Shown: positions 1,601-27,805, counted from the first letter of the stretch. The stretch is 30,016 nucleotides of DNA from a virus (IMGVR_UViG_3300041403_000547:1-30016), one strand, 5' to 3'. Program-made: numbers and translations. The notes: generated by a model not told the origin, from the letters alone.

Positions 1601-3546
1601 TACGCGAGCAAGCCTCCAGGGCGCTTCTGTTTGATTAGTTCTTGGCGGATAGCAATACCAATAGCTTCGCCAAGGCGCTTCGATTCATCGCCATTCCCTT
1701 CAACCCTACTGCCGGTTGCATCGACGCTTACGTTGATCGTGGCGCCGCCCATCGCGTTATTGGGGATGATGCTGCCGCTGCGTCCTGGCATGAACAGCTC
1801 AGGACCGCGCTCGCCAACGATTGCAGGTTTGCCGCCGGAGATGCTGCCGCCATCAGCAAAGCGAGGCAGACTCTTGAACAACGATGAGCCAGGGAACAGG
1901 CTGAACAGGGCAGTATTAACTGCGACCTGCAGGAGCTGGTTCGCCAGGTTGCGGAGCATGTTGGAGGCGACTTCTGCCAGCGACTTGGTCTGATCAACTG
2001 CTGCCATCAGCATGTCGCTGACGCCTGTTGCGATGGTCTGCCCAAGCTGCCCATAGATCTGCTCAAGGCGCTGGGCTTCTTTCTGCTGCTCTCTCAAAGC
2101 ATCAGCCTGCTTCTTGGCGTTTGCTTCGTTCAGATCCTTGATGCTGGCAGTTACGTTCTCGGTGCCATAAAGGACGTCGAGCTGTTCCTTGAGGACGTCC
2201 CTCGCTTCTTGAGATAGCAGCGGGAAGTTTCTGTCGATTTCTTCCTTTCTGACTGACAGCTCAAGACGTTTTTGCTCTTCGCTAGTCAATGCAGTAGCCA
2301 GCCTTGTTTGATCCTGAAGCTGCTGCAGCAACTTTTCCCCTGCTTCGGCTTGCTGCTGGAACGGAGTTTTCGTTGGTTTCTTGCCTTTGCCCTGAGTGCG
2401 CGCAGCTAGTAGCGCTGGCGGTGCTGACGCAGCAGCTACAGCAGGCGTGGTCGCTTCAGGGATGATCTGCCCCGTCTTGTAGCCGTATTGCTCGATCAGA
2501 TCCTTCTCTCGCTGGAGCTTGAGCTGATTGAACAGAGCTGGGTCAAGCTTGCCGCCGCCTCTGATCAAAGCGAGCTCTTTCGCCTCCTCCTCTGCTTGCC
2601 GGAGGATCTTGGTTCGCTGCTGCTGAGTCAGACCGAACTGCTCGGCGCGCCTTGCGGAGTTGATCAGTTGGTTAACAGAGTTGATCGCGCCAATCGCCTG
2701 ATCAAGGATTGCCTTAATTGCTGGGCTAAGAACCGTGCCAACGACCCGAGCAATGTTCTCGATGCCATCGACCAGGGTGCTGAACTTGCCTGACAGCGTG
2801 TCGGACTGAGCGATTGCACCCCCTGCATATTTGCCGCCTGTCTCCGTCAGCTTCTCAAGGGCGAAGTTGACAGCATCAGCGCCAATCCGACCAGACTCCA
2901 GTGCCTTGCGGAACTCATCAGCGCTCAGCTTGTACTCTTCGCGCAAGACGCCAGCGATGTCAACGCCGCGCTCCTGAAGCTGCAGTAGCTCTTCGCCCTG
3001 CAAGCGTCCTTTCGCTTGGATCTGACCAAAGGCAGTGGCAATGCCGCCCAGGTCAGCGCCAGTGGCACCAGCCACATCGGACAGACGCTTGGTGACATCG
3101 ACGATCTTTTCTGTCTCAAAGCCAAACGCCTTTAAGCGCTTTGCCGTCTCAATCAGCTCCGAGCTGGTGAAGGGAGTAACAGCGCCAAACGCCTGAAGCT
3201 CAGCGATGATGTTTTTGGCGTTATCAAGCGAGCCAGTCAGAACCTGCAGGCTTCTAGTTTGCGTCTCCAGTTCCGCAGTTTTGAAGATGACAAACCTTGC
3301 TGCCTGAATCGCGGTGAAGCCAGCCAGCAATCCGCGAATCGCCCTGCCAAGGTTGTTGACCCCAGTGCTTGCTGATTTGGCAGCGTTTCCGGTATCCCTG
3401 AGCTGACGATTGAACCCACGGATATTGTTTTGCGCCCCCCTGACAGCTTGCTCAAGCTGCTTGGTTTCGTTCTTGACTTTGCGCAGCGGGTTGAGAGCCT
3501 TTACGGCATCAACGATCAGTTCAACTCTGGACTGAGCGCTTGCCAC
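1600..3546 (-). CDS. Tail tape measure protein
   Basis: The gene starts with GTG and encodes 648 residues. The N-terminus is helical and charged. Residues about 85-280 match the tape-measure domain (TIGR02675 type) with its conserved FTSSELIETAKRLKAFG and QLQAKGRLQGEELLQL-like segments. A long Gln/Lys/Glu-rich coiled coil fills about 385-500. The C-terminus has a hydrophobic stretch and an IVGERGPELFMP motif typical of lambdoid tape measures. The protein sets tail length; at about 1.5 angstrom per residue of helix the tail would be near 100 nm, which is inference. It lies between the tail chaperones and gpM, as expected. Confidence 0.9.
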   Translation of the reverse strand: MASAQSRVELIVDAVKALNPLRKVKNETKQLEQAVRGAQNNIRGFNRQLRDTGNAAKSASTGVNNLGRAIRGLLAGFTAIQAARFVIFKTAELETQTRSLQVLTGSLDNAKNIIAELQAFGAVTPFTSSELIETAKRLKAFGFETEKIVDVTKRLSDVAGATGADLGGIATAFGQIQAKGRLQGEELLQLQERGVDIAGVLREEYKLSADEFRKALESGRIGADAVNFALEKLTETGGKYAGGAIAQSDTLSGKFSTLVDGIENIARVVGTVLSPAIKAILDQAIGAINSVNQLINSARRAEQFGLTQQQRTKILRQAEEEAKELALIRGGGKLDPALFNQLKLQREKDLIEQYGYKTGQIIPEATTPAVAAASAPPALLAARTQGKGKKPTKTPFQQQAEAGEKLLQQLQDQTRLATALTSEEQKRLELSVRKEEIDRNFPLLSQEARDVLKEQLDVLYGTENVTASIKDLNEANAKKQADALREQQKEAQRLEQIYGQLGQTIATGVSDMLMAAVDQTKSLAEVASNMLRNLANQLLQVAVNTALFSLFPGSSLFKSLPRFADGGSISGGKPAIVGERGPELFMPGRSGSIIPNNAMGGATINVSVDATGSRVEGNGDESKRLGEAIGIAIRQELIKQKRPGGLLA

Positions 3547-3574
3547 CGCTGCTATCGCTTACAGATGACCCAAT

Positions 3575-4107
3575 CTATCGCCGCTGATTCTTCGCGCGTT
3601 GCATCGCCTCCTGCTCGCGCTCGTTCTTCAGCTCATAGAACGCAGCGTAATAGGCAAGCTCCGCATCGGTCAGCTCGTTACGCATCCGGCTGACCGTCAT
3701 CCCCAACTCGCAGGACAAGAAGAACTCAAAGAAGAGCCAGTTGTCCTGCTTCAGTCGTTTTTTGCTTCCTCAAGCGTTTCATCGTCGCCCAGACCGAACA
3801 GGAACAGCTCCAGCTCGTTCAAGACTGACTCAGGCAACATGCGCTGCAGCTTGGCGGCATCAGCAGGCGCAAAAGCTTTGCTGCCATCCTGCAGCTCAGC
3901 CTTCTGGCACAGCATCTGGGTGCTGATGTCCAACGCCTCGTCCGTACCAGCCAGGGCTTGCGCCTTCTTGCGGTCAGCCCTGGTGATCGGCGGGAAATAA
4001 AGATCCACCAACGCATCACCGCTGGCGTTCTTCAATACAAACTTGCGGCGCTGGTTAAGGTCAAACGCCTCAACCAGCATGTCAACTGTCCGCTTTTGTA
4101 CTGGCAT
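3575..4107 (-). CDS. Tail assembly chaperone fusion (gpGT-like) made by -1 frameshift
   Basis: The 118-residue zero-frame gene at 3751-4107 ends just after the heptamer A AAA AAC (minus strand, 3763-3757). If ribosomes slip back one base there, translation continues for 60 residues to the TAG at 3577-3575, giving a 177-residue fusion. The extension carries NWLFFEFFL and GMTVSRMRNEL segments like those of gpT/DUF4035-type chaperones, and it has no start codon of its own near the join. In lambda both the short and fused products (gpG and gpGT) coat the tape measure protein before tail tube assembly. The spacing from the slip site to the zero-frame stop is only two codons. Confidence 0.85.
3751..4107 (-). 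CDS. Tail assembly chaperone, short form (gpG-like)
   Basis: This is the unshifted product of the chaperone gene, 118 residues starting at an ATG at 4107. It is mixed alpha/beta with a QRRKFVLKN beta segment near the start and a helical, acidic C-terminus ending near LEEAKND. Its place between the major tail protein and the tape measure gene fits a gpG-like chaperone. The last codons include the slippery heptamer used for the longer form. Confidence 0.82.
   Translation of the reverse strand: MPVQKRTVDMLVEAFDLNQRRKFVLKNASGDALVDLYFPPITRADRKKAQALAGTDEALDISTQMLCQKAELQDGSKAFAPADAAKLQRMLPESVLNELELFLFGLGDDETLEEAKND
3757..3763 (-). promoter_or_regulatory. Programmed -1 ribosomal frameshift site
   Basis: On the minus strand the bases read A AAA AAC in the zero frame of the chaperone gene (codons GCA AAA AAC). 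This is a canonical X-XXY-YYZ slippery heptamer. The zero frame stops two codons later and the -1 frame is open for 60 more codons. Confidence 0.88.
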
Positions 4108-4142
4108 CAGAGCTTATTTAATCGCCCTGATACTACACCTCA

Positions 4143-4565
4143 TCACTCAAGGTTGCCGGTGATGGTGCCACTGGTGATGAAGTTGCAGCTCACAACAACA
4201 AGCTCACCGACGGTGGAACTGATCTCCATGTCAGTGATGATGCCAGCAAAGCTGATCGAATCAGTGCCGCTGGTGGTGCCGGTAGTGAACAGCTCGAAGG
4301 TTGCGTCTGCGCCGTCAGCAGTGGTCAGCACGTCTTCCAGGAAGCCAGGTTGACCAGTTGCGTCGGGGTCATAAACCAGCTCGACGGTGCCGGAGCCGGA
4401 GATCAGGCTGCCAACAAAGGAACGAAAGGTGTCACCGTGATCGGTAACGTCCAGGGTTTCCTTAGTGGTGGTCAGGCTCCAGCTACGGGTGCCGACGATA
4501 GTTGCATTAGTGCTGCCAGCGGCGTCGAACTGGACTGCGCCCTGTTCGCCTCGAAGGATTGCCAT
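4143..4565 (-). CDS. Major tail (tube) protein
   Basis: This 140-residue protein is rich in Thr, Ser, Gly and Val and is mostly beta, as are siphovirus tail tube proteins. Recognisable segments are the N-terminal AILRGEQGAVQFD, a SWSLTTTKETLDVTDHGD strand pair and TDMEISSTVGELVVVSCNFITSG near the end. These match short tail tube proteins that build the non-contractile tail. The gene lies between the tail terminator and the chaperones, its normal place. A 35-base gap with no obvious hairpin separates it from the chaperone gene. Confidence 0.85.
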   Translation of the reverse strand: MAILRGEQGAVQFDAAGSTNATIVGTRSWSLTTTKETLDVTDHGDTFRSFVGSLISGSGTVELVYDPDATGQPGFLEDVLTTADGADATFELFTTGTTSGTDSISFAGIITDMEISSTVGELVVVSCNFITSGTITGNLE

Positions 4566-4568
4566 GGG

Positions 4569-4994
4569 TCAGAGTTCCTCGATGGATTCAAAGGTCACAC
4601 GGACCTGGGTTTGAAAGTAGCCCTCGGGAGCTGGTGAAGCCAGTGCCTCTGGACCTGTTGGAGCGTCGAAGAAAACCCCCGACACGTTCACCCTATTGTA
4701 AAGATCACGGATTCTCTTCCCGATTGTGTAGTTGGCGCCAGGTCCAACACCAGGGGCAGAAAAGATATTGATTGTCAGTAAGCCGAAGATGCGGTTTTGG
4801 CTGTTGCTGGTGCTGCCCTGGCTTAGGTATTCGTTAGCGCCAAAGGTGGTCAGGCATTGAACCCAGCTTGACGCTGGGGTCGGCTCAAACGCCATGTTGT
4901 GAAAGACGACCGGGATGGCGGGGTCTTCCGCTAGCTCAGTGGCGAGGCGTCCTTCGATGACAGAGCGGACGGTGTTGAGGTTGGTAGCTGCCAT
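4569..4994 (-). CDS. Tail terminator protein (gpU-like)
   Basis: The 141-residue product is alpha/beta with an N-terminal helix (NTVRSVIEGRLATEL), a central WVQC strand and a C-terminal FQTQVRVTFESIEEL strand. This pattern is that of gpU/DUF4128-type tail terminators, which cap the tail tube and join it to the head. It starts on the last base of the upstream gp10-like gene and ends three bases before the tail tube gene. The assignment rests on fold pattern and gene order. Confidence 0.7.
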   Translation of the reverse strand: MAATNLNTVRSVIEGRLATELAEDPAIPVVFHNMAFEPTPASSWVQCLTTFGANEYLSQGSTSNSQNRIFGLLTINIFSAPGVGPGANYTIGKRIRDLYNRVNVSGVFFDAPTGPEALASPAPEGYFQTQVRVTFESIEEL

Positions 4995-5368
4995 CAGTTG
5001 CCCCTAGCGATTGCTCTTATCAGTTTGGGCACATCTTTAGCCGCAATCTCCTTGCCCAGCAGGTCAGGGAATCCCTTGATCGCTCCCACCCTGGTTCGCC
5101 ATTGCCCCTTCCAAGATGGCGGCAGGTTCGTGCCATACATCACCGGCTCGGCGTATTGCAGGTTGTTGATGATGCGCCCGGTGTAAGGCTCGCTGACATT
5201 GACTTGCCAAGACTGGCGAAGCACTCCAGTGTCTACAGGCGTACCGAGGTTTGGTGGCTGCCGAGTCTGCAGCTCGAACTGCCACTTCAGCGTCGTGCGC
5301 TTGACCAGCGTTTGAATCTGGTCATCAAACAGGTCGCCAATCTGATCGAGCTTGATGTTCCGTGCCAT
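4994..5368 (-). CDS. HK97 gp10-like neck/tail completion protein
   Basis: The 124-residue protein has the hallmark segment GTPVDTGVLRQSW near residues 42-54, followed by a beta region with YAEPVMYGT, both typical of the HK97 gp10 family (also called minor tail protein Z-like). These proteins act at the head-tail joint. The gene sits between the head-closure candidate and the tail terminator. The C-terminal helix (KEIAAKDVPKLIRAIARGN) is also usual for the family. Confidence 0.8.
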   Translation of the reverse strand: MARNIKLDQIGDLFDDQIQTLVKRTTLKWQFELQTRQPPNLGTPVDTGVLRQSWQVNVSEPYTGRIINNLQYAEPVMYGTNLPPSWKGQWRTRVGAIKGFPDLLGKEIAAKDVPKLIRAIARGN

Positions 5369-5370
5369 CG

Positions 5371-5727
5371 CTACGCCCTCAAGATCAGCTCGTAGACGAT
5401 CGCCGTATTGTCCTGCTCTGTGATGTTGACCTGGATGATCTGGTGGGCAACGCCGCCGATCACCACGCGATCCTTCGTCTCCGGTGCAGTGGTCACAGCA
5501 GAGGCAGCAATCAGCAAGCGCTTGTCGCCTGCCTGCACCAGCTCGTTAACTTCCCGCAGAGCAACGTCGCTCAGGACGCCCTTGATCGTGCTATCCGACT
5601 CAGACTCGGTGACAGCACCAGTGGTCGTGTTGTAGCTCCCGCCCGTCACGATCCGTACCGTCACATCGCCGCCAAACTTGCTGACGACCTTGTTGGCAAC
5701 CTTGCGTAGCGAGCTGGAAAGTGCCAT
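5371..5727 (-). CDS. Probable head closure / head-tail joining protein
   Basis: I chose the ATG at 5727, which overlaps the previous stop (TGATG) and gives 118 residues; seven more in-frame codons upstream lie inside the previous gene. The protein is beta-rich, with TVRIVTGGSYNTTTGAV, IKGVLSD, DKRLLIAA and KDRVVIGGVAHQIIQV segments. This resembles phage head-closure (stopper) proteins that act between connector and tail. Position between head-adjacent genes and the gp10-like gene agrees. Confidence 0.65.
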   Translation of the reverse strand: MALSSSLRKVANKVVSKFGGDVTVRIVTGGSYNTTTGAVTESESDSTIKGVLSDVALREVNELVQAGDKRLLIAASAVTTAPETKDRVVIGGVAHQIIQVNITEQDNTAIVYELILRA

Positions 5728-5981
5728 CAGATCTTGTACGCAATGCACGCCCCATTCTGGAGCTTGATGCTGGTGAAGTATCCAGTCAGGTGAGCGCCCT
5801 GATCAACGGTGGCACCAGCAAAGCTGTTGTCGATCACGTTGGTGCTGACGATGGCGCTGATCGTGCTGCTCTCGTAAAAATCGATATGCATGAACTGCCC
5901 GGTATGCGTCGCCGTGTCGTTAATGATCTCAGCGCCTACCGCGTAGTCAACACCTGAAGTACCGCCGTGAGACTTAGCCAT
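5727..5981 (-). CDS. Small cyanophage-type protein, paralogue of the next gene upstream
   Basis: The 84-residue protein has unknown function. It is beta-rich with alternating hydrophobic residues and ends in GYFTSIKLQNGACIAYKI. The gene at 5983-6240 encodes a relative of similar length with the same ending (IAYKI), a shared TGxxxxI segment and the same 3' DNA TACAAGATCTGA. The pair therefore looks like a tandem duplication. Small beta-sandwich decoration or fibre-base proteins are possible, given the place beside virion genes, but nothing in the sequence proves this. Confidence 0.72.
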   Translation of the reverse strand: MAKSHGGTSGVDYAVGAEIINDTATHTGQFMHIDFYESSTISAIVSTNVIDNSFAGATVDQGAHLTGYFTSIKLQNGACIAYKI

Positions 5982-5982
5982 G

Positions 5983-6240
5983 TCAGATCTTGTAAGCGAT
6001 CACAGCGCCGGATGAGCTCAGGGTAAAAGCGGTAAAAACTCCTTGGATCTCGAATCCTGCAGGCAGTGACTCACCGACAAGACTGTTCCCTGTCCAGTTT
6101 TGCGCGGTAAGAGCGCTGAAACTGGTGTTGTTTTTTAGAATCGTGATTCGATTCCACCTGCCAGTTTGAGCATCGGTGCTGCTAACAAAGTCAGCGCCAA
6201 TGCTATAGGCAGGATCGATGCTAACTCTGTTGTCAGCCAT
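5983..6240 (-). CDS. Small cyanophage-type protein, tandem paralogue
   Basis: The start is the ATG at 6240, which overlaps the upstream stop (TGATG); a GTG one codon earlier is less likely. The 85-residue product has a SIGADFVSSTDAQTGRWNRI N-terminal half, an NWTGNSLVGESLPAG middle and the ending SSSGAVIAYKI. It shares length, spacing and ending with the following gene (5727-5981). The function is unknown; both are probably virion-associated by context. Confidence 0.74.
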   Translation of the reverse strand: MADNRVSIDPAYSIGADFVSSTDAQTGRWNRITILKNNTSFSALTAQNWTGNSLVGESLPAGFEIQGVFTAFTLSSSGAVIAYKI

Positions 6241-6548
6241 CACGCAAAGACCCGGTAAGGCTGCTCAGGGGTTACAGCGTACTGCTCCCAGCCAGCAGGC
6301 AACTCACCAACGTAGTTGACGTGCCAGCCATCGAGCACGGTGGGTTCGGTGATGACGTTGCCTTCTTCGTCCCACTCACCACCACGGGAAATGGTGCCGA
6401 TTACATCAAGGGCGTGATAGTGGCTAGCGGTGATGGGATTCTGGTCTTCATCAAGCAGACCAGCGTCATCAAGTGCAGCCATGCCGACAGCAGCATCTGC
6501 AAACCGGAAGAACGGACCGATGGGCGGTGTGAGGATTTCTTCTTCCAT
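6240..6548 (-). CDS. Small conserved phage protein of unknown function
   Basis: This 102-residue acidic protein begins at an ATG two bases after the previous stop. It contains PITASHYHALDVIG, a Gly/Glu-rich turn, DGWHVNYVGELPAGWE and ends PYRVFA. I recognise this as a type of small protein often found beside tail-fibre or adaptor genes in phages, without known function. It is probably co-translated with the paralogue pair downstream. Confidence 0.7.
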   Translation of the reverse strand: MEEEILTPPIGPFFRFADAAVGMAALDDAGLLDEDQNPITASHYHALDVIGTISRGGEWDEEGNVITEPTVLDGWHVNYVGELPAGWEQYAVTPEQPYRVFA

Positions 6549-6550
6549 GG

Positions 6551-8314
6551 TTAGGTAGTAATGGTTTGCAGGGTGTCGTTAGAAAGGCGGGTTGGCCAGT
6601 AGGTTAGGCGGTTGATGGTGCCACTAAAACCAAGTGCTCCGCCAACTCTTGATCTAAGTGTCATTTGGTTGAGTGATTGCGGCCCGGCAGTGTTCGCTTC
6701 GGCAGAAGTAATACCTCTAGTCGCTGCAACCGAAATGGAACTATCCCATGATTGCGCCATCGAAGCGATTTCACCAGAAAGAACAGCGGGCATTCCAGTC
6801 AAAAGTGTATTAACACCTGATCCTGCTGTGACAGTGCCTGCATACACTTGATTGGTGTTATTCCATAACCCGACATGTCTTTCGTTAGCAATTGTTCCAT
6901 CTGACAGGTCGTACAGCAGCTTGAAGCCAGAAAGAGGCATTTGGTGGGATATACTCCCAGCAAACACCGTCCCCTCATCCTGCCGATACCAAGAAGAGAA
7001 GTTCGTCCCCGTAATACTCGCCACGTCAGCAGCGCGGGTGACGGTAGAACCTTCGGTGGGGATGTAGCTGGTGGGGAAGGAACCGGCTTCTAACTGGGCT
7101 CCCCAGAGGTAAACACCGCCAGAGTCGGTAACTGTTCTGCTTCCATCTGTGTCAGCTAAATAAATAGAGACAAAAGTTGCTGTAGCGCTAGACGAAACAA
7201 TACAGCGATACCAGCCATCGCCAACGCTTACAATGCTTGCCGTGTGGTCTGATTGTTGTGTGCCTACAGTACCACTTGCAAGATCAAACCATGTTTCCCC
7301 ATTGCCACTTGTATTAGTCAGGATAGATATTTTTGACTTGGTACTAGCTTTGGCGTAGACAGAAACAGTCGGAGTTGCAGTGTTTGTAGAGACATTTACA
7401 TTGCCCGCGCTGGTCTGGCCAGATGCCTGCTGAATAAAGTCGGCGGTTAGTGTGCCGTTTGGCGCAGTAGTTGCATTAACGGTAGATCCGCTGCCGAAGG
7501 CTCGCAAACGAGCCGTATTCCACGTCGTCGAAAAATCTTCCGACTGCAGCAACAAATTCGTCCTACTTTCCTCCACCAACAACCCCAAGCTCTCACCCGT
7601 CTCTGGGTCGTGATCAAACCGTGGAGCACTGTTGATCGCGGTGGTGGTTTTGACGTATTGTCCGGCGGTGCTGGATTGCTCTAGTTGGGCGCCCCAAACA
7701 TATACTGTTGCGGAATTTCCAGTTCCTCCCACTACAGTGCGCACATCCAAACCTACTTGAGCTTGCGCTGGATTTGTAGTGTAATTAACTGAAACACTAA
7801 ACCTTTGCCAAGTGGTAGTGACGTTGCAGGTAGTAATTTCTGATTCCGTACCAGTGCTGTTTGAAATTCGTAACAAAACACTTTGAGCAGAATCAGCTCG
7901 CAACCAAATAGAGGCTGTGTGATTGCCTGTTGTTGAATATGAGATTCTTGTATAATAGTAACCAGTAGAAGTCAGTGCAACAGTATCTGCAGTTGTTGTA
8001 CCTATAGGGCTAGTCGCAGTGTCAGAAGTTATGGTTGCACCAGACTGAAGCGGACTTGTCCACTGACTTACGTCCTCCGACTGCAACAGTAAATTAGTAA
8101 CCGCCGTTCTAATCACCCCATCGCCGTCAACATACGTTGCGCTACTTTGGCGGGTGTGGTCAACAAGAGTCTTGCCCGTAACACTGTCAACAAGACTCCC
8201 ATTGCTTGAAAAATTAAGGTCAAGAGTGGGTCTAGCTCCACCAAGATCGTAGAGCTGGTCACCAAGACCGTTGTAGGAACTTGATGCGCTTGCCTTGGTG
8301 ACGCCCAGTTTCAT
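6551..8314 (-). CDS. Large virion protein with two carbohydrate-binding-like repeats and LamG-like C-terminus
   Basis: The 587-residue protein starts with a head-like segment containing PTLDLNFSSNGSLVDSVTGK and a YVDGDGVI motif. Two repeats of about 165 residues follow: each opens with TNLLLQSEDxS and closes with YVWGAQLE or YLWGAQLE (about 77-215 and 255-415). Such repeats are jelly-roll, carbohydrate-binding-like modules common in phage fibres. The last 160 residues (GTVFAGSISHQ to INRLTYWPTRLS) resemble a concanavalin/LamG-like domain. The likely role is host-surface binding as a fibre or head fibre. Its base composition looks more AT-rich than its neighbours, which may mean recent exchange. 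Confidence 0.78.
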   Translation of the reverse strand: MKLGVTKASASSSYNGLGDQLYDLGGARPTLDLNFSSNGSLVDSVTGKTLVDHTRQSSATYVDGDGVIRTAVTNLLLQSEDVSQWTSPLQSGATITSDTATSPIGTTTADTVALTSTGYYYTRISYSTTGNHTASIWLRADSAQSVLLRISNSTGTESEITTCNVTTTWQRFSVSVNYTTNPAQAQVGLDVRTVVGGTGNSATVYVWGAQLEQSSTAGQYVKTTTAINSAPRFDHDPETGESLGLLVEESRTNLLLQSEDFSTTWNTARLRAFGSGSTVNATTAPNGTLTADFIQQASGQTSAGNVNVSTNTATPTVSVYAKASTKSKISILTNTSGNGETWFDLASGTVGTQQSDHTASIVSVGDGWYRCIVSSSATATFVSIYLADTDGSRTVTDSGGVYLWGAQLEAGSFPTSYIPTEGSTVTRAADVASITGTNFSSWYRQDEGTVFAGSISHQMPLSGFKLLYDLSDGTIANERHVGLWNNTNQVYAGTVTAGSGVNTLLTGMPAVLSGEIASMAQSWDSSISVAATRGITSAEANTAGPQSLNQMTLRSRVGGALGFSGTINRLTYWPTRLSNDTLQTITT

Positions 8315-15290: not shown

Positions 15291-16616
15291 TTAATAGATC
15301 CGAATGCCAGTAGGTTTGCCCGCCTGTTGATACAACGGGTTGAAAGCGCCGAGGACTAGGTAGCCGAGACCATCAGTCCAGTGCTCGATCCCGGCTGATT
15401 TGTCGATCACATAATCATCAGCGCCTTCTTTGAAGCAGACATTTTTGAGGGCTTTGATTGTGTGCTTGCAGCGCGGGTGAACGAACATCCGCAGTTGACC
15501 ATCAGCGGTGCGGATCATCCAGTTGGTCGCGTTGATCTTGTCTTTTACAGCCCAGGGTGCTTTGGGGCTGATGCATTGGAAGCCGTAGCGGCGGATGATG
15601 TCGTGGTCGGTGCGACCCGCCGAAGAAGTCTTGCGGGCGCTCCCTGTTGGATCTGGATAAGCAATAACTCGCCGGTTTGGGAAGCGTTCTTTGAGGAGTT
15701 GACAAACCTCATCGGTGTTCGACTGCTTGACAGCGAGTTCATCCCAGATGTGGATGGTATCGCCTACGCGGCTTGCGAGAACGCCCGCCATGATGCCGAC
15801 GTTGAAGTCAGTGCCCCAGTAGATCTCGCCTCCGGTGTCTTTGACGTCTTCGGAGATGTTGTCGTCGCTGAAGTCTGGGTAGACGCGACCGGCGAGGGTC
15901 TCGAAGCTGGCTAGGTATTCCTGCCGGAAGGTGCGCTCGTCGAGGGTGCGGCGTGCTGCTTCGACTTCTTCTTCAGGGACGTTGCCTCCCTGGATCGTGG
16001 TGTACGAGAAGGTCCGCCAGTCTTCTTGATCTTGAGCTTGTTCCCAAAGGTCGTGGAACCAGTTGAGCCCTGCAGGCGTTGTGATGAACCAAGCGGGACC
16101 ACCTTGGTCTGACAGTGCAGGGCGTAGCACCATTTCCCAAGCGTCCTGCTTGACGTACGCCGCCTCATCGACAATCAGGGTGGACAGGCTGACGCCACGC
16201 AAGGTGTCAGGGTTTTCTGCGCCCTTCAAGGCGATGATGCTGCCGTTGCTTAGCTCAACGCTCAGGTCTGACTCGTTCCGCTTGACGCAGATCTCAGGTG
16301 GCACCATCAGCTTGAGCTGTCGCCAGGCGATCTGCTTTGCCATGCGGTAGCTGGCGGTGACGTACCAGTTCAGGCTGTTGGGCTTGGCAGTTGCCCAGCT
16401 AATGAGCTGAGCGATTGAGAGGTATGTCTTGCCGAAGCGGCGACCTGAGCAGAGCATTTTGAAACGCTCTGGCGCAGCAAAGACTTCGCGCTGTGGTCCA
16501 GTCAGGCTGTCGTAGAGGGTGGTGCCAAGACTGGCGATTGCTCGCTGTGCTTCTTCTGTGGACTCAACTACAGGTGACAGCACAGAACCGCGCGGCAGGG
16601 TGCTGAGGAAGCCCAT
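15291..16616 (-). CDS. terL: Terminase large subunit
   Basis: The 441-residue protein has an ATPase domain with Walker A SGRRFGKT (57-64), Walker B TLIVDE (146-151) and coupling motif ITTPAG (178-183). The C-terminal nuclease begins near GTDFNVG, with Asp270 as a probable metal ligand, and continues through YPDPTGSARKTS and the acidic/His residues near IEHWTDGLGY. This enzyme pumps DNA into the prohead and cuts the concatemer. Its ATG overlaps the small subunit's stop (16616), so both subunits are coupled. Confidence 0.92.
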   Translation of the reverse strand: MGFLSTLPRGSVLSPVVESTEEAQRAIASLGTTLYDSLTGPQREVFAAPERFKMLCSGRRFGKTYLSIAQLISWATAKPNSLNWYVTASYRMAKQIAWRQLKLMVPPEICVKRNESDLSVELSNGSIIALKGAENPDTLRGVSLSTLIVDEAAYVKQDAWEMVLRPALSDQGGPAWFITTPAGLNWFHDLWEQAQDQEDWRTFSYTTIQGGNVPEEEVEAARRTLDERTFRQEYLASFETLAGRVYPDFSDDNISEDVKDTGGEIYWGTDFNVGIMAGVLASRVGDTIHIWDELAVKQSNTDEVCQLLKERFPNRRVIAYPDPTGSARKTSSAGRTDHDIIRRYGFQCISPKAPWAVKDKINATNWMIRTADGQLRMFVHPRCKHTIKALKNVCFKEGADDYVIDKSAGIEHWTDGLGYLVLGAFNPLYQQAGKPTGIRIY

Positions 16617-16942
16617 CAGTCGAAGAGCTTGGCGATTTTGGCGGCAGTGTTAATGCAGCCGAGGGTGACAGCCAGATTGCCACCTTCCATGGACTTTTTA
16701 TGGACGATATTGAGCTGCGATAAGAGAACTGCTGCGTAAGCCTGACGGTCGAGGTTCCAGTCTTCTTCCAGCTCCTTCATTGCGGCGGCACGGTAGTCGT
16801 CTACCGAGCGTGAGCTGAGCCCCCATTCTTGAGCACCGTATTGCAGGAGATCTGAGCGTGTTGCACCGTTGGCGATCATGCGAGCGAAGCGCATGGTGCG
16901 GAACTGCTTTTCAGCAGCGGTGCAGCGCGTTTTACCTGCCAT
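16616..16942 (-). CDS. Terminase small subunit (probable)
   Basis: The 108-residue helical protein has an N-terminal helix-turn-helix-like region (KQFRTMRFARMIANGATRSDLLQYGAQEWGLSSRSVDDYRA, about 12-52) and a helical oligomerisation region ending INTAAKIAKLFD. Small terminase subunits bind phage DNA at the packaging site with such a fold. It lies directly upstream of terL and is coupled to it. It begins 20 bases after the dioxygenase gene; a TATAAA sits in that gap. Confidence 0.8.
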   Translation of the reverse strand: MAGKTRCTAAEKQFRTMRFARMIANGATRSDLLQYGAQEWGLSSRSVDDYRAAAMKELEEDWNLDRQAYAAVLLSQLNIVHKKSMEGGNLAVTLGCINTAAKIAKLFD

Positions 16943-16962: not shown

Positions 16963-17760
16963 TTACAGGTTGGCGAAGGAGTCTAGTGCGTACCAGACGT
17001 GAGAGTTCCGGTAACCGCCTGGGTGTGTTGGGTTGATGGGTGTGACGCCGTGCATGTTGCGCCAAGCGGGGTAGACGAGCATGGAGCCGTCTATTTGATC
17101 AAAGGTGGCGTTGTAGTCGGGGACGTAAAGGTTGCCGCCAGTGCTGTTGCGGCGTTTGGTGATGATGATGTTGATAGCGCCTTTGACGTTGGCGTTGTCC
17201 TGGTGGATGGGCGCAGCGATGTTGCAGTTGGAGATGGTGGAGGAGAAGTTTTTAGCGAAGCGCCACTTGTCTGGTACGCGAGCTTGTACAGCTTTGGAGT
17301 GAACGGTACAGACTTGCGGGGCAAGGTCTTGGATTAGCTGGTAGGCGGTGATGCCTGCAGCGTGCATTGCCTTGACGAAGGTGTTGGCAGTTTTGTGGGA
17401 GTGAACGGATGAGCGAGAGCCGTAAGCACGGCGCATGTGGGGTTTTGGGGGGACGCTGCCGAGGATCGCTGAATATTGGGAAACGACCAGGTAACGGCGC
17501 TTGCCATCAGGACCAGGTGGGAGGGGGCGCTTGCGGTCCATGACCGTTTTGGGGACACGGTCTGAGTTGACTTCGTGATCTGCGATGTTGATCAGCTTTT
17601 GAAGCTGGTCGGGGAGTTCGCGGAGGAAGAGTCCTACGGCTGTGCCGTCGGGGTCAGCAAGGATGCAGGACTCAGTGATGTTTGGTTTCAGGTCAGGGCA
17701 GGTGTCGCCAATTTTGCGTTGATGGGCGACGGGTGTGAGGGTGACGGTTGGGAGTGTCAT
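16963..17760 (-). CDS. TET/JBP-type 2-oxoglutarate/Fe(II) dioxygenase (DNA base oxidation, predicted)
   Basis: The 265-residue protein has a double-stranded beta-helix C-terminal half. It shows the iron ligands HQD at 186-188 followed by an Asn, a GGNLYVPDY strand, a second histidine in WRNMHGVTP (His237) and an arginine in GYRNSH (Arg251) suited to bind 2-oxoglutarate. This order and spacing is that of phage TET/JBP proteins, which oxidise the methyl group of 5-methylpyrimidines in DNA. Gene context supports a DNA role: it is coupled by ATGA to a glycosyltransferase and precedes terminase. A protein hydroxylase of another 2OG family is the main alternative. Confidence 0.78.
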   Translation of the reverse strand: MTLPTVTLTPVAHQRKIGDTCPDLKPNITESCILADPDGTAVGLFLRELPDQLQKLINIADHEVNSDRVPKTVMDRKRPLPPGPDGKRRYLVVSQYSAILGSVPPKPHMRRAYGSRSSVHSHKTANTFVKAMHAAGITAYQLIQDLAPQVCTVHSKAVQARVPDKWRFAKNFSSTISNCNIAAPIHQDNANVKGAINIIITKRRNSTGGNLYVPDYNATFDQIDGSMLVYPAWRNMHGVTPINPTHPGGYRNSHVWYALDSFANL

Positions 17761-18509
17761 TTGACTTGGCGCCCGAGTGATTTTGCGAGACCTGCGATGT
17801 CGAGTTTGCAGTCAACGCGATCTTTTTTCTTTACCAGTTTTGTGAATGGTGCCCATTCAGCGGCAAGTTTGGCTGCAGCTTCATGGTCACGTTGCTGGCG
17901 GTAGAGGGTTTGAAGTCCGCCTGCATTGGTGCCTACGCCAGGGCAGTTAAACCAACTGAAAAGGTCAATGATGATGCCGTCAGAGTTTTGTACGGCTTGC
18001 ATACAGAAGTCACGGTCTTCTTTGAGGTTGAGCCGTGCTCTGTACTGCCAGGTGATTTTGGGGACGTAGAGCAGGGTGCAGACTTCTGCTGGGCGCTTGT
18101 TGACGGTGAAGCGCTTGGGCTTGGTTGAGTAGGACCAGGCGTACTGGCAATAGTTGATGCCGTTGACAGGGAAGCGATGTGGTGCGACGCGCTGGTGGAC
18201 CTGCTGAAGGACGGTGGCATCACCCTTGATGGTTTTGCCTGCCTTGGCAGTGCCAAAGCCTGAAACATCATCGTCCATCATCCAAATCCAGTCGTTGCTG
18301 GTTTGGCGCGCCCAATCAAGGATGTAGTTGCGGACGTAGGCGATGCCCTGGTCGTTGTCGGGCAGTACCTGAAGATTTGGGACGGCAGCGGCTTTGTAGG
18401 CAGCAGCATCTTGAGGTTCAACGAAAGTCGTGAACGGAATGCTGGCTGCCTGCAGAAGCTTGTAGGCAGAGGTTGTGGGTCTGCCTTTGCTTGGGATGCA
18501 GACGTGCAT
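17757..18509 (-). CDS. GT-A glycosyltransferase of the TET/JBP-associated type (predicted)
   Basis: The 250-residue protein opens HVCIPSKGRP, a nucleotide-sugar binding start, and has GIAYVRNYILDW (55-66) and a metal-binding MMDDDV (78-82, the DxD motif) as in GT-A enzymes. Later there is LKEDRDF (162-168), fit for the catalytic base region, and NCPGVGTNAGG (188-198). This combination resembles TET/JBP-associated glycosyltransferases (TAGT) that attach sugars to hydroxymethyl bases. It is coupled to ParB-like upstream (TGATG) and to the dioxygenase downstream (ATGA). The sugar and the acceptor base cannot be told from sequence. Confidence 0.75.
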   Translation of the reverse strand: MHVCIPSKGRPTTSAYKLLQAASIPFTTFVEPQDAAAYKAAAVPNLQVLPDNDQGIAYVRNYILDWARQTSNDWIWMMDDDVSGFGTAKAGKTIKGDATVLQQVHQRVAPHRFPVNGINYCQYAWSYSTKPKRFTVNKRPAEVCTLLYVPKITWQYRARLNLKEDRDFCMQAVQNSDGIIIDLFSWFNCPGVGTNAGGLQTLYRQQRDHEAAAKLAAEWAPFTKLVKKKDRVDCKLDIAGLAKSLGRQVK

Positions 18510-19111
18510 CAGGCGAGGGCTTCGATGAGCTTCATGCCGACATAGTCGCCACGTTTGCGGGCAGCATCGACGAGGGCTTTTGCTTCGTCGTAGTCCTCAG
18601 GGCGGAACTCAATTTGGATGGCTTTCATGACGCCATCAGCGAGTTCAGTGGTCGGGTCATCGTCATCGAAGTCATCGAGTGCGGAGAGGTCGATGTCTTC
18701 GCCAAAGGTGGGAAGGTTTTCACCCCAGCCAAGGAGGGTGAGGTCAAAGCCTGCATCGCCCAGTGCCTTGAGTTCAGCTTGCAGGAGGTCATCGTCCCAG
18801 CCGCTGTTGAGGGCTAGCTGGTTATCAGCAATGACGTAGGCGCGACGCTGCTCAGGTGTGAGATGCCCGAGGGTGATGGTGGGGACAGTTTTAAGCCCAG
18901 CGATGATTGCCGCCTGGAGGCGACCGTGACCGGCGATGACGTTGTTGTCTTCGTCGATCAGGATTGGGTTGGTGAAGCCAAACTCCTTGAGGGAGTTGAC
19001 CAGGCGCTCTAGCTGAATGGCTGAGTGAGTGCGAGGGTTGTTCTCGTAAGGAACGAGTTCATCGATTGGGGTTTGATCAATGAACTCTGGAGCAACAACC
19101 ATCGTCGTCAT
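18509..19111 (-). CDS. ParB-like (ParB/Srx superfamily) protein without a methylase domain
   Basis: Residues 14-105 of 200 form a ParB N-terminal domain: IDELVPYENNPRTHS, VNSLKEFGFTNPILID, and the phosphate-binding IAGHGR (59-64), then LTPEQRRAYVIADNQLA. In many phage and bacterial proteins this domain is followed by an acidic linker and an N4/N6 DNA methylase. Here the linker is present (DLSALDDFDDDDP) but the protein ends about 40 residues later with a FRPEDYDEAKALVDAARKRG helix and no methylase. Such proteins may bind or nick DNA, or act as nucleases. It heads the coupled trio with the glycosyltransferase and TET/JBP-like enzyme. Confidence 0.82.
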   Translation of the reverse strand: MTTMVVAPEFIDQTPIDELVPYENNPRTHSAIQLERLVNSLKEFGFTNPILIDEDNNVIAGHGRLQAAIIAGLKTVPTITLGHLTPEQRRAYVIADNQLALNSGWDDDLLQAELKALGDAGFDLTLLGWGENLPTFGEDIDLSALDDFDDDDPTTELADGVMKAIQIEFRPEDYDEAKALVDAARKRGDYVGMKLIEALA

Positions 19112-26878: not shown

Positions 26879-27805
26879 ATGCCAGACCCGCTCCGCGATT
26901 ACCTAAATCAGATCGGCAGAATCCCGCTGCTAACCGCAGCGGAAGAAATCGAACTCGGCAATTCCATCCAGCGCATGATGCCGCTACTGGACAAGCCGAA
27001 CCTAACCAAAGAAGAGCAAAAGGTCATCCGCATCGGCAAGCGCGCCAAGAAGCGCATGGTGCAGGGCAACCTTCGCCTCGTGATCAGCGTTGCCAGCAAA
27101 TACAACAAGATGACCTGCCGCCTTTCGATGCAGGACCTGATCCAAGAAGGCAACATCGGTCTGATCCGTGCCGTCGAGATGTTCGACCCCAGCCGGGGGT
27201 ACAAGTTCTCGACATATGCCTACTGGTGGATTCGCCAGGGCATCATGCGCGCGACGCAGACACAAGATCGGATGATCAAGCTGCCGAGCGGTGCGCCAGA
27301 CGGCTTGCGCAAGGTCAGGTATTTCATGATCGACTACCAGCGAGAGCACGGCGTAATGCCAACGCTCAAGCAGTGCGCTGACCTGATCGGCGTGCAACCG
27401 GAGACGATGCGGAACTACCTTCAGGCATCAGAGGATGCAAGCAGCCTTGACGCCAAGGCGAAAAGCAGGACCGACGAAGGCAGCAGAATCCTCGATCTCA
27501 TCCCAAGCACCTACGGCGCAGCAGATGAAGACCTGGAAGCTGACACCGCCGCCCTCGCCGTTGATCGCGCCCTGAAGCAAATGACCGACCAGGAGCGCCG
27601 GATCATCACCATGCGTTACGGGCTAGATGGCGAAGAGCCATTGTCGAATCCAAGCATCGGCAAGAAAATCGGACTTCACAAAGAAGCCGCTCGCAAACTT
27701 GTCCACCAAACAGAGGAAAAGCTCCGCAACATTCTTATGGACCGACCGCCGGGAAAGTCGAAGCGACAGAAGAGCAGCTCCAGCTTGACCTGGGGCTGGA
27801 GTTAA
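26879..27805 (+). CDS. Phage-encoded sigma-70 family factor
   Basis: The 308-residue protein has a short region 1.2 (DPLRDYLNQIGRIPLLTAAEE), region 2 (QGNLRLVISVASKY, MQDLIQEGNIGLIRAVEMFDPSRGYKFSTYAYWWIRQGIMRA, about 60-125), region 3 (from 140) and region 4 (about 225-285). It looks like the cyanobacterial primary sigma family, but it lacks the acidic region 1.1, and its region 4.2 reads SIGKKIGLHKEAARKLVHQ where hosts have a conserved SRERVRQIE stretch. The change should alter -35 recognition. The factor would redirect host RNA polymerase to phage promoters. Confidence 0.9.
   Translation: MPDPLRDYLNQIGRIPLLTAAEEIELGNSIQRMMPLLDKPNLTKEEQKVIRIGKRAKKRMVQGNLRLVISVASKYNKMTCRLSMQDLIQEGNIGLIRAVEMFDPSRGYKFSTYAYWWIRQGIMRATQTQDRMIKLPSGAPDGLRKVRYFMIDYQREHGVMPTLKQCADLIGVQPETMRNYLQASEDASSLDAKAKSRTDEGSRILDLIPSTYGAADEDLEADTAALAVDRALKQMTDQERRIITMRYGLDGEEPLSNPSIGKKIGLHKEAARKLVHQTEEKLRNILMDRPPGKSKRQKSSSSLTWGWS

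Follow-up and report, generated by a model that had tools for sequence, protein, structure and literature searches.

A ParB, glycosyltransferase and TET/JBP dioxygenase operon with an exchangeable middle gene in a probable cyanophage, predicted to hypermodify pyrimidines in viral DNA

Results

The window, by which we mean the whole stretch of DNA analysed here, is the whole of a marine virus record, 30,016 bases long, in which profile searches identified head, tail and replication genes of siphovirus type. On its minus strand three genes follow one another, the first encoding a ParB-domain protein of 200 amino acids (18509-19111), the second a TET-associated glycosyltransferase of 250 amino acids (17757-18509; hereafter TAGT) and the third a TET/JBP-type 2OG-Fe(II) dioxygenase of 265 amino acids (16963-17760; hereafter TET). 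The overlap between the ParB and TAGT genes is 1 nt and that between the TAGT and TET genes 4 nt. The next gene on the same strand starts 20 nt past the TET stop codon. It was named as the terminase small subunit, TerS (16616-16942), by its position, which is syntenic with that in phage MED4-184 and in most related loci, and it matched phrog_34910, a family of unknown function. The large subunit, TerL (15291-16616, minus strand), comes next and was identified by PF03237 (1.2e-14) and phrog_2 (8.3e-44).

The original prediction had described three adjacent, overlapping genes lying directly upstream of the terminase in a probable cyanophage, and this description was upheld throughout. All three ORFs were recovered at the predicted positions, together with the motifs IAGHGR, GIAYVR, MMDDDV, H186-Q-D188, H237 and R251. 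The affinity to cyanophages was supported by the major capsid protein, which had an 85% identity to that of Synechococcus phage KBS-S-2A and an 81% identity to that of S-H1, as well as by the TET, which had a 65% identity to the TETs of Prochlorococcus phages MED4-184, P-HS2 and MED4-117. Among named phages, the window TerL was closest to its counterpart in cyanophage S-2L (52%), whose DNA has 2-aminoadenine in place of adenine. The window also encodes a sigma-70-type factor at 26879-27805, with regions 1.2, 2, 3 and 4 and only distant cellular matches; a sigma factor is likewise annotated in KBS-S-2A.

The sole Pfam match of the dioxygenase was Tet_JBP (PF12851; 27.1 bits, E=2.8e-6), at a score under the curated cut-off of 34.9 bits, and scores across the entire TET family ranged from 24 to 34 bits. 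The protein also matched phrog_6059 (E=2.5e-67). When its AlphaFold model (pLDDT 76, with active-site loops of low confidence) was compared with the PDB using Foldseek, ranks 1 to 19 were all occupied by NgTET1 (E=1.7e-7), CcTet, human TET2 or CMD1. Profile and fold both point to TET/JBP, in agreement with the family originally proposed, and a prolyl or other 2OG hydroxylase was rejected on the Foldseek ranking. The outcome set beforehand as refuting the prediction, a profile match to a different 2OG hydroxylase family with none to TET/JBP, did not occur. On the basis of motifs, H186, D188 and H237 were assigned to Fe binding and R251 and S253 to 2OG binding. These residues and N191 are invariant in the family; for the iron triad and R251 this was seen in 21 family members and also in nine distant phage TETs. 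The motifs align with HRDLHN and RIS of human TET2, and the HxD...H triad, the 2OG arginine and the HxDxxN pattern are all present. Profiles were also run against the PDB. One built from a broader set of phage TETs picked up TET2 and CMD1, and more weakly CcTet and NgTet1; one of the TET family alone returned only TAL-repeat artefacts. No relatives of the TET were found in a pattern scan of 84,980 prokaryote genomes. The label "queuine tRNA-ribosyltransferase", which PHROGs and RefSeq attach to proteins of this family, was rejected as a mislabelling, since profile and fold are those of TET/JBP. It is carried by TETs at L082:17129-17914 and L138:855-1787, by phrog_6059 and, in RefSeq, by the TETs of MED4-184 and MED4-117, and it hides the family from annotation searches.

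The assignment of the middle gene to TAGT-like glycosyltransferases was borne out by a match to PF20691 of 55.2 bits (E=1.2e-14), well over the curated cut-off of 27.5, and the protein also matched phrog_842, annotated as "beta-glucosyl-HMC-alpha-glucosyltransferase" (8.6e-21). The acidic DDD of residues D79-D81, a DxD-type motif as in GT-A enzymes, is invariant in 18 members. The TAGT structure model was of low confidence (pLDDT 71), and its matches, to nucleotidyltransferases or nucleotide-sugar enzymes and to GT-A enzymes, were weak. The T2/T6 beta-glucosyl-HMC alpha-glucosyltransferase, which shares PF20691 with the window enzyme, acts sugar-on-sugar (PMC13216743); since such action is possible for TAGT too, the acceptor of the window enzyme is not certain.

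The first protein of the operon matched ParB_N (PF02195; 31.4 bits against a cut-off of 26.3, E=2e-7), its GxxR motif reading GHGR, and it matched phrog_15396 (7e-50) and phrog_620 (7e-49). The N-terminal part of the phage DNA methyltransferase family phrog_498 also aligns to it (E=5e-46), indicating that ParB domains of this kind accompany DNA-base-modifying enzymes elsewhere. Its putative role is likely that of an NTP-dependent DNA-binding or targeting partner. In comparison with relative L002, the dN/dS ratio was 0.016 for ParB, 0.026 for TAGT and 0.031 for TET, and all three genes are under purifying selection. Together with the E-values, the Foldseek ranking and the invariant residues, these low ratios argue that the cassette is not the product of chance.

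Relatives proved common, at least 595 being confirmed in a scan of IMG/VR, and the gene content between ParB and TET was surveyed in 87 distinct marine-virus loci, from which duplicates had been removed. ParB and TET were constant in all 87, and the slot between them was found to hold an FkbM-type methyltransferase in 43 (family C), a divergent TAGT in 21 (family B), a TAGT as in the window in 19 (family A) and no gene in four, but never two genes. No BLAST similarity was detectable among the three families. The divergent TAGT scored 29.5-37.7 bits against PF20691 and matched phrog_25200; the FkbM-type enzyme scored 41-44 bits against PF05050 and 56 bits against TIGR01444 (cut-off 37.7). In the loci with an empty slot (L054, L056, L067 and L127) the ParB stop codon overlaps the start of TET.

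Exchange of the slot content between otherwise similar phages was seen in nucleotide alignments, in which homology to close relatives broke at the middle gene. Between the window and L006, blastn gave a 79-82% identity on either side of TAGT (positions 528-2983 and 3741-7631 of the segment compared) and skipped the gene itself, which lies at 2992-3744 of that segment. In comparisons with L041 and L050 the homology broke at the end of ParB and again 90-300 bases inside TET. The slot must have changed its content at least 14 times on a ParB tree and nine times on a TET tree, where three changes would be the minimum; these were quick trees with many weak branches. Matches to TAGT and to FkbM fell in disjoint records, five and nine respectively out of 20 whole records, in a scan that missed the divergent TAGT of two family B records. 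Locus L049 had appeared to carry both TAGT and FkbM, but was rejected as a double, the 31% match lying on the opposite strand and outside the slot. In the cultured Prochlorococcus phages MED4-184 and MED4-117 the gene order is that of the window (ParB, middle gene, TET, TerS, TerL), with FkbM instead of TAGT; as TAGT is absent, their FkbM enzyme cannot act on a sugar that TAGT has added. The cassette of ParB, glycosyltransferase and TET that had been predicted is thus real in the window but is not fixed, its glycosyltransferase being replaced elsewhere by a divergent TAGT, by FkbM or by nothing. Phage systems of TET and glycosyltransferase, the TAGT family, and ParB in the company of Tet-like genes (Tonitrus) are already known. 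The literature searched gave no earlier report that the slot is exchangeable, that FkbM can stand in for the glycosyltransferase, or that cyanophages have a large lineage of TETs unaccompanied by a methyltransferase, and we state this with caution.

The pairing of ParB with TET near the terminase was also met well outside this family, in unrelated phages. The order in mycobacteriophage LilMcDreamy is ParB, TET, ADDT (amino acid:DNA transferase, PF18724, a family of thymidine hypermodification), an Asp/Asn-hydroxylase-type protein, TerS and TerL, and that in Rhodococcus phage Tonitrus is ParB, TET, ADDT and Ploopntkinase3. Two marine lineages have a comparable arrangement, namely L242 (L242:5397-10743; ParB, TET at 87 bits, glutamine amidotransferase, GNAT, ADDT at 70 bits, P-loop kinase, terminase) and L254 (L254:5423-10375; ParB, TET, ADDT, Rossmann oxidoreductase, P-loop kinase, terminase), and both likely represent further unexplored hypermodification pathways of the thymidine type. 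ADDT was present in eight records outside the window family (Tonitrus, LilMcDreamy, Kozie and G023-G027); the window and 12 records of its family gave no match to it. For Tonitrus, the combination of ParB, a Tet-like protein, aGPT-Pplase2 and a 5-hmU DNA kinase was proposed by its authors to be a thymidine hypermodification system (PMC11955845), and in the DNA of phages ViI, M6 and phiW-14, 5hmdU is the substrate of a 5hmdU DNA kinase and of transferases (PMC6449724). The window shares its ParB-TET module with Tonitrus and LilMcDreamy, and with the thymidine-hypermodification systems it would share the modification of a 5-hydroxymethyl pyrimidine (PMC6449724, PMC11955845); it differs from the thymidine-hypermodifying phages in the absence of a detected ADDT, and from ViI and M6 in that these incorporate 5hmdU as a nucleotide. 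These phages speak for thymine as the base that ParB-linked TETs act on; having other tailoring enzymes, they bear on the TAGT and FkbM versions indirectly. In Arthrobacter phage Prairie, ParB and TET lie away from the terminase, with a sub-threshold TAGT and a PIG-L deacetylase. In this locus (L139:7722-9993) the TAGT-like glycosyltransferase follows TET, and the PIG-L protein after it belongs to the GlcNAc de-N-acetylase family, which suggests an amino sugar on the base.

Discussion

We consider it very probable that the operon is concerned with hypermodification of pyrimidines in DNA, whichever base is involved. For the fuller statement, that it is a post-replicative cassette which converts thymine to 5hmU and then caps it, the balance is moderately favourable. 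Thymine is always at hand in DNA, and a cytosine-directed TET requires 5mC. A profile for C5-cytosine methyltransferases (PF00145), which detected the enzyme in S-H1 and ten control genomes serving as positive controls, found none in the window, a record that may be incomplete, and among 44 TET-bearing records gave a match only in G017 and G029; most of the records searched are fragments, in which an absence is incomplete evidence. In G017 (locus L122, with FkbM in the slot) the gene lies outside the cassette at L122:5219-6124, about 3 kb upstream of ParB. Seven isolates, MED4-184, MED4-117, P12024L, Tonitrus, LilMcDreamy, Prairie and Kozie, were among the 42 records in which none was found, and in a search for methyltransferase-linked TETs seeded with the TET of P12024L, L211 alone had one. 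Hydroxymethyl-nucleotides usually originate from enzymes of the thymidylate-synthase family, and no member of this family (dUMP or dCMP hydroxymethylase) was detected in 21 TET-bearing records or in the TET-less relatives KBS-S-2A and S-H1. As the C5-methyltransferase is missing in nearly all records and a hydroxymethylase in all those tested, thymine is the more likely substrate. A TET/JBP enzyme and a glycosyltransferase, in a genome where no source of 5mC was found, form the combination taken here to indicate a base J-type pathway.

The strongest competing explanation, which we regard as possible but rather unlikely, is that TET oxidises 5mC, made by the host or by an unseen phage C5-methyltransferase, to 5hmC, which TAGT then glycosylates. 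It draws on the fact that the best-known phage TETs, as summarised in PMC12730594 from Burke 2021, are 5mC oxygenases tied to phage C5-methyltransferases, and on the kinship of TAGT with the T2/T6 glucosyl-5hmC transferase (PMC13216743) seen in the match to phrog_842; the two methyltransferase-bearing records point the same way. Against these stand the other 42 records and the hosts themselves: 5mC could come from a host methyltransferase, but Prochlorococcus genomes typically contain none or one restriction-modification system, and many contain none (PMC8262939), so that host 5mC is likely scarce. Eight residues past the 2OG-binding arginine, where TET2 has a histidine that contacts the base, the window protein has Leu259, and among other phage TETs the position is taken by Leu, Ile or Arg. 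The replacement allows no firm conclusion. Of the original prediction of glycosylated oxidised pyrimidines, with hypermodified cytosine as the precedent, modification of viral DNA stands as the best reading, but cytosine as the base presumes a source of 5mC, and thymine is at least as likely. Dinucleotide bias, considered as a possible trace of the modified base, did not differ consistently according to whether a phage carried TET. TpA is strongly under-represented in the window, at an observed/expected ratio of 0.49, and ranged from 0.38 to 0.87 among relatives with and without TET.

In the thymine pathway that we infer, as regards enzymatic activities, target base, role of the ParB-domain protein and protective function alike, TET would act on a pyrimidine that is part of the phage DNA and oxidise its 5-methyl group to 5-hydroxymethyl, this base being more probably thymine (T to 5hmU to glycosyl-5hmU, in a base-J-like manner) than 5-methylcytosine. 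TAGT would add a sugar onto the resulting hydroxyl, the acceptor probably being the bare hydroxymethyl group, and the ParB-domain protein would hold, load or target the enzymes on DNA, while terminase-adjacent expression may lead to modification just ahead of packaging. The middle gene would decide the final chemistry, giving a sugar with TAGT or divergent TAGT, probably an O-methyl group with FkbM and a bare hydroxymethyl group where the slot is empty, and the frequent exchange of the cap may reflect selective pressure from hosts able to recognise certain modified bases. Evasion of restriction or CRISPR is plausible as the putative function. A bolder proposal, which we offer tentatively and with more doubt than conviction, is that this is a prokaryotic base-J-like pathway which uses neither 5mC nor a hydroxymethyl-nucleotide route, and in which a single slot sets the cap (glycosyl-5hmU, a 5-(methoxymethyl)uracil-type base or 5hmU) and is swapped against modification-dependent host defences. 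We know of no description of a 5-(methoxymethyl)uracil-type base in DNA.

It is improbable that modification is instead confined to a few sites, for example a packaging site to which ParB directs the enzymes, and serves recognition during packaging rather than genome-wide protection. ParB and TET do adjoin the terminase in the window family, in LilMcDreamy and in the distant L242/L254 lineage, but adjacency by itself is no proof of function. No ParB site was identified, and a final group that is exchanged time and again is more in keeping with host-driven diversifying selection than with a conserved packaging signal. Weakest, and very improbable indeed, is a target other than DNA (a virion protein or cell-surface glycan) with TET as a divergent 2OG hydroxylase, for although TET falls under the Pfam cut-off and the usual methylation substrates of FkbM enzymes are small molecules or sugars, the leading Foldseek ranks hold nucleic-acid TET/JBP enzymes only, TAGT is a DNA-linked family and the ParB domain is shared with phage DNA methyltransferases.

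Returning to the in-place oxidation of thymine, several known systems offer comparison. The phage systems of TET and C5-methyltransferase (Burke 2021), to the extent that PMC12730594 describes them, resemble the window in combining TET/JBP with a dedicated glycosyltransferase and in being predicted to act post-replicatively; compared with that description, the window and nearly all its relatives are without a C5-methyltransferase, ParB is constant, and the middle enzyme is interchangeable with FkbM. Base J of kinetoplastids, made by JBP and a glucosyltransferase, would share the conversion of thymine to 5hmU by TET/JBP and the glycosylation that follows, whereas the window is that of a phage with TAGT in place of the kinetoplastid transferase, and its thymine target is a prediction. 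In T-even phages 5hmC is made before replication by a dCMP hydroxymethylase, an enzyme not found in the TET-bearing records searched.

If the thymine reading is correct, common marine cyanophages would oxidise thymine within their DNA and vary the final cap through exchange of one gene, providing a bacterial-virus counterpart to kinetoplastid base J and one or two DNA bases that may not have been described before. It would also define a ParB-linked, methyltransferase-free guild of TETs that can be told apart from the phage TETs known to be linked to 5mC. Similar phages that differ in the cap would form a natural series with which to probe how host defences read DNA modifications. The cultured phages MED4-184, P-HS2 and MED4-117, which carry the FkbM version, and the TET-less KBS-S-2A and S-H1 make this reading directly testable.

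A different arrangement was observed in two T4-like contigs (L183:6404-10100 and L184:6491-10190), where a TET, a glycosyltransferase-like protein and an ADDT-family protein are encoded consecutively and end in near-identical tails (TTLEDFF, TTLEDFF and SLDKFF). The common tail is possibly a sliding-clamp-binding peptide that links modification to the replisome.
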